DNA from: Flavobacterium plurextorum
GTDB lineage: Bacteria; Bacteroidota; Bacteroidia; Flavobacteriales; Flavobacteriaceae
Direction of reading: 5' to 3'
NCBI RefSeq assembly: GCF_002217395.1
Contig: NZ_MUHD01000015.1
Coordinates: 1 to 64,000, forward strand
Length of the DNA stretch: 64,000 nt
Shown: one piece after another, positions 7,577-11,085 of the stretch
Numbering within the stretch: the first letter of the stretch is position 1
Layout of the letters: every line of letters starts with the position of its first letter
Translations under genes and position numbers: made by a program
Notes under the pieces: generated by a model
Databases searched by the model: none
What the model was told of the DNA's origin: nothing
Seen by the model: the letters and a program-made list of their open reading frames with translations, nothing else

Positions 7577-8542
7577 TTAATGAAACTTTCCAAACAATTT
7601 TGACGCTTCGTTATACGCACTTTCAAAGCTTAAGGAATTAAGTCCTGTTGCTTTTTTATTCGCAGTAAAATACGAAACCAATTTTTCGGTTGGCATATTT
7701 CCTGTTAGTTTATCTGTTGCCATCGGACAGCCTCCAAATCCTTGAATTGCACCATCAAAACGTGCACATCCAGCTTTTGCTGCGGCATCAATTTTTTCAA
7801 ACCAGCTATCGGGAGTTGTATGCAAATGCGCTCCAAATTCAATTTTCGGGTATTTCGGAATTAAATTTGAAAAAAGATAGGTAATAACTTCTGGTGTCGA
7901 ACTTCCAACAGTATCTGAAAGTGATAAAATTTTCACTCCCATTCCTGCCAATTTTTCTGTCCATTCAGCCACGATCTCAACATTCCACGGATCTCCATAA
8001 GGATTTCCAAATCCCATTGAAAGATAAGTAACAACCTCTTTCTTTTTTTTATCAGCAATCTCTAGAATTTCTTCAAGAGTTATCAAAGATTCTGCAATGG
8101 TTTTATGAGTATTACGCATTTGGAAATTCTCTGATATCGAAAAAGGAAACCCTAAATACTGAATTGATTCATGTTCTGAAGCCAAAGCTGCTCCTTGTGT
8201 ATTTGCAATTATCGACAAAAGTTTACTTGTAGTTTGAGACAAATCTAGCTGTGCCAAAACCTCGGCAGTATCCTGCATTTGCGGAATAGCTTTAGGCGAT
8301 ACAAAACTTCCAAAATCAATAGTATCAAACCCTACACGAAGTAAAGCCTGAATATAGGTTACTTTATTTTTTGTGGGAATAAATGCTTTAATACCTTGCA
8401 TGGCATCTCGCGGACATTCGATAATCTTGATTTCTTTATTCAAAACGTACTCTTTTGTAATGGCTAAGTTAGTTCCTTTTTTAAAGAAATAAAAATTAAG
8501 TCGTTTTGTATAATTCGTTTTTTTTAACCATATAAGCCTCAT
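7577..8542 (-). CDS. Hydroxymethylglutaryl-CoA lyase
   Basis: A pyruvate carboxylase/HMGL-like TIM barrel: ECPRDAMQG at the start of the barrel, DFGSFVSP, SLSDTVGSS, the metal-binding HLHTTPD and the loop GFGGCPMA with its reactive cysteine. The enzyme cleaves HMG-CoA to acetyl-CoA and acetoacetate, the last step of leucine degradation. The only ATG start at 8542 gives an N-terminal extension of about 35 Lys/Phe-rich residues that the family does not normally have; a TTG near residue 36 is an alternative. The gene faces satD across an array of dyad sites that covers its predicted -7 element. Confidence 0.9.
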   Translation of the reverse strand: MRLIWLKKTNYTKRLNFYFFKKGTNLAITKEYVLNKEIKIIECPRDAMQGIKAFIPTKNKVTYIQALLRVGFDTIDFGSFVSPKAIPQMQDTAEVLAQLDLSQTTSKLLSIIANTQGAALASEHESIQYLGFPFSISENFQMRNTHKTIAESLITLEEILEIADKKKKEVVTYLSMGFGNPYGDPWNVEIVAEWTEKLAGMGVKILSLSDTVGSSTPEVITYLFSNLIPKYPKIEFGAHLHTTPDSWFEKIDAAAKAGCARFDGAIQGFGGCPMATDKLTGNMPTEKLVSYFTANKKATGLNSLSFESAYNEASKLFGKFH

Positions 8543-8570
8543 AAGTCTTATTCCTTTTTTATACCATTAC

Positions 8571-8578
8571 CAAAAATA
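8571..8578 (-). promoter_or_regulatory. Predicted -7 element of HMG-CoA lyase gene
   Basis: The minus strand reads TATTTTTG (TAnnTTTG). It is exactly the 8-bp spacer of the first dyad site, and lies 28 nt before the ATG at 8542. Confidence 0.5.
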
Positions 8579-8655
8579 GTAATAAAACAAAATATTCCTA
8601 AAAAAGGTAATAATCAAATATATTACCAATAAATGTAATATTTAAAAATATTACT

Positions 8656-8663
8656 TATATTTG
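8656..8663 (+). promoter_or_regulatory. Predicted -7 element of satD
   Basis: TATATTTG, a perfect TAnnTTTG match, overlaps the spacer and right half of the fourth dyad. A second TATATTTG at 8690-8697 lies only 5 nt before the ATG and would give a leaderless message. Confidence 0.6.
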
Positions 8664-8702
8664 TAATAGAAATTTTATTATTTTTTAATTATATTTGATG
8701 TT

Positions 8703-9317
8703 ATGACTAGTGTAATTACAGGCGACATAATTGATTCAAGACAGCAGCAATCAAAACATTGGGTTGAGGATTTAAAAGAAATCCTAGCTCAATTTGGCGA
8801 CGCACCAAATCAATGGGAAATTTACAGAGGAGATGAATTTCAAATTGAAGTTAAAAATCCCGAAGAAGCTTTACTTACGGCTATTTTAGTAAAAGCACGT
8901 TTAAGAGCTATAAAGCTGGACGCTCGAATGAGTATTGGTTTTGGCAATAAAACACATAGTGCTGCAAAAATATCCGAAAGTAACGGAACTGCTTTTATAA
9001 ATTCTGGAGAACTTTTTGGAACTTTAAAAAAACAAAAGGTAACACTGGCTTTACGAACTGGCGATAGTATTTTTGACGAAAAGCTGAACTTAATGTTACA
9101 ACTGGCTTTAACCTTCATGGATAATTGGCTGGTACAATCTGCTGAATTTGTAGCAACAGCAATAGAAAACCCTGCTTTATCTCAGGAAGAAATTGGTCAG
9201 AAATTAGGAATTAACCAAGCCGCTGTGAGCCGCAGACAAAAACGTGCTCAATTTGATTTGGTTATGACTTTAGACCGCTATTTTAGAACGCAAATAAAAC
9301 AACTCACAGCTCCATGA
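8703..9317 (+). CDS. SatD-family protein: cyclase/GGDEF-like palm domain plus HTH
   Basis: The C-terminal part (about residues 159-183, LSQEEIGQKLGINQAAVSRRQK) is a helix-turn-helix. The N-terminal 120 residues match SatD-family proteins by pattern. They also look like a class III nucleotidyl-cyclase or GGDEF palm: ITGDIIDS (Asp8) matches the first metal strand, YRGDEFQ (Asp44) matches the GD hairpin, and MSIGFG followed by GTAFINSGELF resembles the closing strand and helix. This fold reading is my inference, and nucleotide chemistry is unproven. The stop overlaps the DUF3307 gene by 4 nt. Autoregulation through the upstream dyads is likely. Confidence 0.8.
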   Translation: MTSVITGDIIDSRQQQSKHWVEDLKEILAQFGDAPNQWEIYRGDEFQIEVKNPEEALLTAILVKARLRAIKLDARMSIGFGNKTHSAAKISESNGTAFINSGELFGTLKKQKVTLALRTGDSIFDEKLNLMLQLALTFMDNWLVQSAEFVATAIENPALSQEEIGQKLGINQAAVSRRQKRAQFDLVMTLDRYFRTQIKQLTAP

Positions 9318-10021
9318 TTTTATTTATAAAACTGTTTTTATCTCATTTATTAGGAGATTTTATATGGCAGCCCAACAAATGGGTCGCTGATAAAGAAACG
9401 AAGAAACATAAAAGCATTTATTTATATCTTCATGTTTTACTGCACGGAATTTTGGCAGCAATTCTAGTTGGAGAAATTAGTTTTATACCTTACGCAGCAT
9501 TCATAGCCATTACCCACGGCTTTATAGATTTTATCAAACTTAATTTTCAGAAGAAGAAAACAAAACGCACTTGGTTTGTTGTAGACCAAATTGCACATAT
9601 TTTGATTCTGATTGCCATCACACTTTTATACCAAAATAAAAATATGATTCATTTTTGGCTTGATGATGAATTTTGGATTTTAGTAACAGGAATTATATTT
9701 ATCACTAAACCGACTTCTATTTTTATTAAAACTATTATCTCTATTTGGAATCCCGAAAGCCAAAACAGTAATCAGGATAACTCACTTGCCAATGCAGGAA
9801 ATTACATTGGCATATTAGAGCGTTTATTTATATTCTGCTTTATCCTTTTAGGACATTTTGAAGCAATTGGATTTTTATTGGCCGCAAAATCTATTTTTAG
9901 ATTCGGAGATTTAAAAGAAGCCAAAGATCGAAAACTTACCGAATATGTCTTGATCGGTACTTTAATCAGTTTTGGAATCGCAATACTTGTTGGACAAGTC
10001 GTTCAGACGTTAATTTTATAA
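9314..10021 (+). CDS. DUF3307 polytopic membrane protein
   Basis: The ATG overlaps the satD stop (ATGA), so the two are coupled. The protein has about six hydrophobic segments. Conserved-looking polar residues lie in or beside the membrane segments: HLLGDF (His11, Asp15), HVLLH (His40, His44), THGFID (His68, Asp72) and DQIAH (Asp91, His95). The ladder suggests a metal site, as in membrane-embedded metal hydrolases, but this is inference. The pairing of DUF3307 with SatD is one I recall from other Bacteroidota. The 3' end overlaps the convergent pyrD by 6 nt. Confidence 0.8.
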
Positions 10022-11050
10022 CTGGCTTAAAACTTTCTTGTTTATTGCTTTTATAAGCGCTGGGCCTTCATAAATAAAACCTGTATACAATTGCACTAAA
10101 CTTGCACCTGCATTTAGTTTTTCGATTGCATCATCTGCAGAATGAATTCCTCCTACTCCAATAATTGGAAACGCTTTATTGCTTTTTTCCGAAAGAAAAC
10201 GAATTACTTCTGTAGAACGTTTTGTTAATGGTTTTCCAGATAAACCTCCCATTTCAGATTGGTTTTGAGATTGTAATCCATCTCTTGAAATAGTAGTATT
10301 TGTAGCAATTACACCCGCAATTTGAGTTGTTTTTACAATATCTATAATATCTAACAATTGCTCATCTGTAAGATCTGGAGCAATTTTTAAAAGAATTGGT
10401 TTTACTTTTTGAGTACTTGTTTTTTGTTTCTCGATATTTCTATCTTGCAACGTCTGCAATAAAGCTGTTAAAGGCTCTTTGTCTTGTAATGCTCTTAGAT
10501 TTGGTGTATTTGGAGAACTTACATTTACCACAAAATAATCAACATGATCAAACAAAGCATCGAAACAAATGATATAATCGTCAACCGCATTTTCATTTGG
10601 TGTCACTTTATTTTTTCCGATATTTCCGCCAATCAAAACTCCTGAATTCTTTTTCAAACGTTCTACAGCTTCAATAACTCCGCCATTATTAAAACCCATT
10701 CGGTTAATAATTGCCTGATCTTCTTTTAAACGGAACAAACGCTTTTTAGGATTTCCTTCTTGACCAACCGGCGTTACAGTTCCAATTTCGATAAAACCAA
10801 AACCAAAATCAGAAAGTTCCTTATATAACTTGGCATCTTTATCAAATCCAGCCGCAAGTCCAACCGGATTTTTGAATTTAATTCCAAAAACTTCTCTTTC
10901 TAAACGAGAATCTTTAACCTCGTAAATAGATTTTATAATTGACGAAACTCCAGGAATTTTTGAAATGAATTTTACAAATGAAAAAGTAAAGTAATGCACT
11001 TCTTCAGGATCAAACCAAAAAAGTATCGGACGGATTATCAATTTATACAT
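10016..11050 (-). CDS. pyrD: Quinone-dependent dihydroorotate dehydrogenase
   Basis: Class 2 enzyme that oxidises dihydroorotate to orotate and passes electrons to quinone at the inner membrane, in pyrimidine synthesis. The N-terminal amphipathic helix segment ([19 protein letters not shown]) is typical of the membrane-associated class. The FMN/substrate segments [29 protein letters not shown] and GVGGI are present. I use the ATG at 11050 (344 aa): a TTG at 11080 would lie inside the predicted -7 element. Full family length. Confidence 0.96.
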
Positions 11051-11077
11051 AAGTGTGTTGTTGTTTTTTTTCGGATG

Positions 11078-11085
11078 CAAATTTA
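11078..11085 (-). promoter_or_regulatory. Predicted -7 element of pyrD
   Basis: The minus strand reads TAAATTTG (TAnnTTTG), 27 nt before the chosen ATG. It overlaps the spurious upstream TTG start and so supports the shorter protein. Confidence 0.5.

Follow-up and report, generated by a model that had tools for sequence, protein, structure and literature searches.

The window analysed here is a stretch of 64,000 nucleotides from Flavobacterium plurextorum (contig NZ_MUHD01000015.1), and the features of interest lie between two genes of its minus strand, an HMG-CoA lyase ORF (7577..8542) and pyrD (10016..11080). These neighbours are the two edges of a block made up of an array of short dyads (8565-8668), satD (8703..9317, plus strand) and a gene for a DUF3307 protein (9314..10021, plus strand), a predicted membrane protein that is the constant partner of satD and overlaps it by 4 nt. 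The HMG-CoA lyase ORF lies outside this module and is probably overlong at its start (8441-8542). In many orthologues the alignment begins no earlier than residue 31-37, alignments to close ones run through stop codons further upstream, and the real start is probably a TTG near 8443; the lyase ORF of another Flavobacterium genome (G103) has a TTG start at the equivalent of about 8443.

Four ATTAC-N8-GTAAT dyads start at 8566, 8594, 8622 and 8650, at a spacing of exactly 28 bp, and together span 8566-8667; the second carries one mismatch (ATTCC for ATTAC). A direct check of the sequence bore out this description, which an initial annotation of the same DNA had given. Extended to six bases (TATTAC/GTAATA), the eight half-sites start at 8565, 8579, 8593, 8607, 8621, 8635, 8649 and 8663, a 14-bp step with alternating orientation, and two of them have one mismatch. 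The units, which have no strand, are dyad 1 (cATTAC-N8-GTAATA, 8565..8584), the most distant from satD; dyad 2 (TATTCC-N8-GTAATA, one mismatch, 8593..8612); and dyads 3 (8621..8640) and 4 (8649..8668), both TATTAC-N8-GTAATA. The 14-bp alternation may be partly accidental, because the Segatella array described below, with TTGATT half-sites, has 12/16-bp spacing.

When the 160-nt intergenic region was resampled 20,000 times under a first-order Markov model, chains of at least two dyads at 28 bp never appeared, in agreement with the earlier claim that such regular spacing is improbable by chance. With at most one mismatch allowed, the 64-kb window contains 12 dyad sites against 3.8 expected, and none of 100 shuffles of the window had as many as 12. 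The whole genome holds 25 exact dyads, compared with 7 matches to the reversed pattern. Three of the 25 are in the array; of the 22 outside it, 21 were read (one on contig C56 was left out), and 16 of these fall within ORFs of at least 90 aa while 5 do not. A global regulon was considered and rejected. Some of the single sites could be real, since exact dyads outnumber reversed-pattern matches. The only place in the genome with two dyads in phase, at up to one mismatch, is this site (3 overlapping matches).

Promoters of F. johnsoniae have the consensus TAHHTTTG with its G at -5, and leaders there average 33 nt, according to the available part of PMC6847099. The plus-strand TATATTTG at 8656..8663, within dyad 4, is the likely -7 element of satD and would place the transcription start at about 8668, with a leader of about 35 nt. 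This box is conserved: among the 59 close relatives counted, 55 have TAnnTTTG inside the last dyad (the other two of the 61 close loci are L130, where no dyad chain was found, and one that was too short). On a numbering inferred with the available part of PMC6847099, dyad 3 lies over the -33 region, at about -47 to -28 relative to the probable satD start, and dyads 3 and 4 together span about -47 to +1, so that SatD sitting there should obstruct RNA polymerase. A minus-strand TATTTTTG is located in dyad 1 of the window; among the 59 relatives, a minus-strand TAnnTTTG was found in the first dyad of one, the window itself. Both -7 elements named in the initial annotation are therefore present, but conservation upholds the one for satD and not the one for HMG-CoA lyase. 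A second conserved TATATTTG (8690..8697, plus strand) lies 13 nt before the satD start codon and 34 bp from the first. All 59 relatives have TAnnTTTG between the last dyad and the start codon, mostly 11-13 nt upstream, and this box may mark a second promoter with a nearly leaderless mRNA or act as a translation signal. The number of dyads in the close relatives ranges from two to six, with three in 19 and four in 35 of the 59.

Linkage of the array to satD and DUF3307

satD is found in 68 of 150 Flavobacterium genomes and DUF3307 in exactly the same 68 (the lists were compared by eye). In all 63 loci read out of these 68, DUF3307 lies directly 3' of satD. We searched the 150 genomes for the array, requiring two dyads spaced by 28 bp and allowing no more than one mismatch. 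It is present in 41, all of them among the 45 with a close satD (at least 59% identity; one such satD is split across two contigs), and absent from the other 105, of which 82 have no satD and 23 a more distant one. The reversed pattern, used as a control, matched in none of the 150. In the four genomes with a close satD and no match, satD is at a contig edge (G044), the letters are ATTCC (G124), or the sites are degenerate (G120 and G073). Among the array matches listed, all adjoin satD except one at a contig end beside HMG-CoA lyase (G114).

HMG-CoA lyase itself is present in 145 of the 150 genomes, including 79 of the 82 that lack satD. No HMG-CoA lyase was found beside satD in 19 of the 63 Flavobacterium loci (L045-L063); at 14 of them 28 bp remains the best period. 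At three empty sites (G103, L223; G099, L225; G036, L224) HMG-CoA lyase comes immediately after pyrD, with both genes on one strand, and the stretches fetched there contain no satD match, no DUF3307 match and no array; the lyase of G103 is 93% identical to that of the window. Because of these empty sites, the array, satD and DUF3307 seem to enter and leave the locus as one block of about 1.5 kb.

Pairs of ATTAC/GGAAT-type dyads at 28 bp, with two mismatches each, were seen in two phage-like-looking clusters (L192:2424-2469 in G099 and L193:2427-2472 in G066). There is no satD in the fetched stretch of either, and one of the two genomes lacks satD. A phage regulator may use the same 28-bp spacing. 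We considered whether the stretch beside these pairs was tRNA-like and rejected the idea, as ARAGORN finds no tRNA there.

Period and letters of the arrays

We collected 191 satD loci, including relatives from the class, in which 48 of 395 genomes have satD. After removal of 18 exact duplicates there were 173 distinct upstream regions, and 171 remained once 2 that were too short had been dropped; near duplicates were kept. The relatives are the best 80 of 575, hence close Flavobacterium loci dominate the sample. When 58 lags (12-69) were compared in the 171 regions, lag 28 came out on top in 137 regions and lag 29 in 9; in 132 regions lag 28 scored higher than in any of 200 resamples of that region. 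In control windows from the same loci, which sat at fixed offsets of 700 and 1000 bases and so probably mostly in genes, lag 28 was the best in 5 of 686 and lag 29 in 3 of 686. The initial annotation had proposed looking for phased dyads upstream of satD orthologues; on these counts, and with the array in 41 of the 45 close-satD genomes, both the dyads and their spacing are conserved.

A stacked-dyad finder gave confident arrays in 145 of the 171 regions, 133 at 28 bp and 12 at 29 bp. The finder was offered periods of 27-30 only, the open tests of period being the lags of 12-69 and, for a subset of loci, periods of 20-40. Among the 26 regions with no confident array in the finder, a pattern search still found one at L005, L011, L021 and L027 (genomes G136, G096, G057 and G004), that of L027 lying more than 200 bp further upstream. 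No array was seen at L174, L132, L134 or L160.

The letters of the half-sites vary by locus and include TATTAC, TGTTAC, TATTCC, TATCGT, TATCGG, TATTAGC, TATCTG, ATTGGC, AAATCAAC and others. Within one array they are largely uniform. The six half-site positions are at least 80% identical in 78-91% of the 133 confident 28-bp arrays, compared with 9-27% for the inner four positions and 19-57% for the outer four; arms were flipped by centre of mass for this count, which favours one side.

The 29-bp period belongs to ten distant SatDs and two Flavobacteriaceae loci, L162 and L164 (the others are L176, L177, L179, L183, L185 and L187-L191). The helices of L162 and L164 resemble those of 28-bp relatives, so the shift from 28 to 29 bp may have occurred more than once. 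Upstream of satD in L090 and L177 there are near-identical units of 28 and 29 bp, which suggests that whole array units were recently duplicated.

We also surveyed plasmids, reading 9 of 19 records with a DUF3307 match. A Vibrio lentus plasmid has three TTAGCC..GGCTAA dyads at 28 bp, two Pseudoalteromonas plasmids have GTAACC..AGTTAC dyads at 28 bp, and a Segatella copri plasmid has TTGATT..AATCAA at 28 bp with a partial second dyad. On a Sphingomonas insulae plasmid, two TCAACC..GGTTGA dyads 28 bp apart lie between a satD-like gene and DUF3307; this gene, for which Pfam gives no SatD match, was named on the strength of its position and motifs. Pairs of this kind, with letters of their own, thus extend to some Proteobacteria (Vibrio, Pseudoalteromonas and Sphingomonas). 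In two Salinivibrio records the 28-bp repeats are all direct and were missed by the dyad-pair test, and no 28-bp dyad pair was found at the Fusobacterium vincentii and Pseudomonas fragi plasmid loci. Over the nine plasmid loci the dyad-pair test gave 11 matches in 56,478 positions, 7 of the 11 at satD, and of the 5 loci tested by lag, 2 had their best score at lag 28. Compared with E. coli genomes, the Vibrio pair gave no DNA match.

SatD and its recognition helix

The SatD of the window matches Pfam family PF16264 ("secretion and acid tolerance D" of streptococci) over residues 5-186 (profile positions 4-199 of 211, E 1.1e-6) with 28.9 bits, 0.1 bit under the Pfam cut-off of 29. An N-terminal domain (about residues 1-120) is followed by a helix-turn-helix (HTH) region at 144-202. 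Sigma70_r4, HTH_37 and HTH_24 all match within residues 145-182, each below its curated cut-off. The AlphaFold2 model has a pLDDT of 91.8 and confident helices at 161-168 and 172-181, the latter being the second, or recognition, helix of the HTH.

The N-terminal domain is modelled as a palm fold of the GGDEF or class III nucleotidyl-cyclase type. Its leading structural matches are GTP cyclohydrolase III, GGDEF domains, adenylyl cyclases and the palms of Y-family polymerases, with VIA Z scores of 10.2 (2qv6, model residues 1-122), 9.5 (4zvg, 1-128) and 9.2 (7yz9, 1-189), where best Z scores of 7-8 are common. Foldseek reports a probability of 1.0 for the palm with a best E of 1.9e-3, a remote match. 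Two candidate metal-binding residues, D8 and D44, never vary in either of two alignments (39 of 39 and 53 of 53 sequences); judged from secondary structure, D8 on strand 1 and D44 in the strand 2-3 hairpin occupy seemingly cyclase-equivalent places. A shared fold shows no function. The palm fold and the two invariant residues make a nucleotide a reasonable guess for a signal that SatD may sense. SatD would share with class III cyclases and GGDEF proteins a predicted fold and, at seemingly equivalent places, conserved acidic residues, but it is remote from them (E of at least 1.9e-3), has RGDxFQ in place of the GGDEF signature and carries a fused HTH, and any catalysis is putative.

The DUF3307 model is all helix (pLDDT 84.9). 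By sequence the protein matches a phage family named as a membrane protein (E 4.2e-14), and among the Foldseek matches listed for its structure there was nothing usable (best E 0.41). PADLOC defence models gave no match for the SatD or DUF3307 of the window up to E 1; the Vibrio SatD weakly matched the CARF3, mad1, Csa3 and CasR models. On the Sphingomonas insulae plasmid (L200:2456-5648), DUF3307 adjoins an annotated Pycsar system effector and an adenylate/guanylate cyclase, a hint of a defence neighbourhood. Carriage of SatD by phages was also considered and rejected, as no relative was found in viral contigs or phage records.

The letters of the operators follow the recognition helix. We paired helix and operator in the 145 loci with confident arrays, leaving out the 26 non-confident ones of the 171, and thinned these inferred pairs to 108 representatives. 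With the N-domain controlled for, operator similarity correlates with identity in SatD residues 170-181 (partial r 0.405, permutation p 0.0005); with the helix controlled for instead, the N-domain gives a partial r of -0.017. These are correlations over pairs of related sequences, and the permutation shuffles loci and models no tree. In the same representatives the value is 0.180 for the first HTH helix and 0.110 for the C-terminal helix. When SatD was scanned in ten-residue stretches, with identity over the whole protein controlled for, the highest value fell at 171-180 (0.412), and stretches ending before residue 150 reach at most 0.117. The top single residues are 174 (0.403) and 177 (0.401); residues outside the helix are also correlated, namely 186 (0.336), 143 (0.274), 145 (0.266) and 45 (0.229).

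Particular helices go with particular letters. NQ-AA-SRR is paired with TATTAC in 68 of 76 rows in the register of the finder, the other 8, among them that of the window itself, being out of register there and adding noise. KR-AA-SRR goes with TGTTAC in all three loci with an array; L130 has this same helix, yet the dyad finder shows no dyad chain there. The remaining pairings are NQ-AA-SKR with TATTCC (1 of 1, L043), NS-SGR with TATCGT (9 of 9) and SS-SEA/SER with TATCGG (5 of 5). Other letters also occur with SKR (L091, L092), and the code linking helix and operator is therefore context-dependent. We regard this covariation as strong evidence, at the level of sequence, that SatD itself would be the reader of the array. 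It favours the suggestion of the initial annotation that a dimeric HTH protein, most simply SatD, binds there, as does the occurrence of the array in Flavobacterium only with a close satD.

Covariation of this kind has precedent in the MerR family, where regulator residues that covary with bases of their own site point to contacts (available part of PMC5045206). SatD sites differ from those in that they stand in fixed-period arrays beside the gene and were found without a prior motif.

A proposed mechanism and its alternatives

We consider it highly probable, judging from sequence comparisons, that the array is SatD's own operator and that SatD binds it and represses the satD-DUF3307 operon. 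SatD would be a one-component regulator with an N-terminal palm domain followed by an HTH, and one dyad would be read by two HTHs, each on a six-base half-site with eight bases between. Dimers on adjacent dyads, 28 bp or 2.67 helical turns apart, would be in mutual contact. As 28 bp is 2.67 turns of B-DNA, successive dimers should point about 120 degrees apart, an offset that fits touching neighbours winding round the DNA better than dimers lined up along a single side. In most cases three or four dimers would wind round the DNA in this way and cover the satD promoter. With dyad 4 over the -7 box and dyad 3 over the -33 region, the operon would be switched off, and the membrane partner DUF3307, which may be harmful, would stay at a low level. 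SatD would come off in response to a signal, for which a nucleotide binding to the palm domain is one candidate. We infer repression because the dyads overlap the satD promoter. In S. pyogenes, satD is accessory (178 of 249 genomes), yet it is essential in the transposon studies compared, and no other accessory gene ranks in the top quarter by essentiality score; an acid-stress role of SatD is noted for S. mutans (available part of PMC11323703). By analogy, the accessory-yet-essential pattern would fit a repressor of a harmful partner.

It is unlikely that SatD binds the array but activates the operon or acts both ways, with the upstream dyads contacting RNA polymerase. In 54 of the 59 close relatives the array has three or four dyads and does reach beyond what simple blocking would require, but the gene-proximal dyad lies over the conserved -7 box in 55 of the 59, dyads 3 and 4 cover about -47 to +1, and an essential but accessory satD, as the available part of PMC11323703 describes it, suits a repressor better. 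We give very little credence to a regulator encoded elsewhere, with SatD a mere passenger gene. HTH homology alone is no proof of DNA binding, and the two phage-like regions have a similar two-dyad pair (two mismatches) with no satD in the fetched stretch. A foreign regulator would, however, sit poorly with operator letters that track SatD residues 171-180 and not the N-domain, with an array that occurs only with a close satD among 150 genomes, and with 28-bp pairs in other letters beside satD in a second phylum.

A divergent operator serving both HMG-CoA lyase and satD appears most improbable. The array does lie between the two divergent genes, with the minus-strand box in dyad 1, and the initial annotation had it repress in both directions from a divergent promoter pair. 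That claim found no support: one of the 59 close relatives has the lyase box, the array is in none of the 79 satD-less genomes that have HMG-CoA lyase, and at 19 of 63 loci no lyase gene was found next to satD. Divergent control of the lyase was accordingly rejected as the main function, and the array may have an effect on HMG-CoA lyase in this genome. Hardly credible at all is a neutral tandem repeat that spread by unit duplication and has no binding function; a few arrays do have near-identical 28- or 29-bp units (L090, L177), but duplication would not be expected to leave half-sites more uniform than inner or outer positions, to hold one period in two phyla, or to produce letters that track a protein helix.

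Autorepression by HTH dimers on neighbouring palindromes is already well known. HigA of P. aeruginosa, for example, binds neighbouring palindromes in its own promoter cooperatively as HTH dimers and represses a two-gene operon (available part of PMC6987408). The autorepression from neighbouring palindromes proposed for SatD would be like that of HigA-type type II antitoxins, and the SatD pair is likewise patchy, as far as the available part of that source goes. As in type II toxin-antitoxin systems, satD and DUF3307 form a two-gene operon, neither gene being found without the other in the 150 genomes (68 have both), and as in HTH autoregulators, there is an HTH in SatD and, by its own gene, a dyad operator that covaries with the recognition helix. 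SatD differs from HigA-type antitoxins in its palm or cyclase-fold domain, which to our knowledge is not known from antitoxins, in arrays mostly of three or four dyads at 28 bp in two phyla, and in its partner, a predicted membrane protein of putative toxicity. The available parts of the open-licence literature on the SatD family describe no DNA-binding role, operator or molecular role. As far as our searches of that literature show, the SatD operator, a fixed period with drifting letters, and the attached cyclase-like domain are new.

More speculatively, and less probably than not, SatD-DUF3307 might be a mobile, nucleotide-sensing two-gene module of at least two phyla, in which a cyclase-fold repressor coats its own promoter as a helical array whose 28-bp pitch is set by protein contact, and a change of ligand releases a harmful or defensive membrane effector. 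If this is true, each copy carries its own operator, so the letters of the half-sites are free to change along with the recognition helix. It is an unusual signature for the spacing to persist across two phyla when the letters do not; a lattice would fix the spacing, and the helix the sequence. The array gives SatD a candidate job and a likely target operon, and it predicts which residues read which bases. The SatD family would then be a natural protein-DNA recognition code with more than 100 inferred helix-operator pairs, and these pairs (145, or 108 after thinning) could be used to train or test models of HTH specificity.
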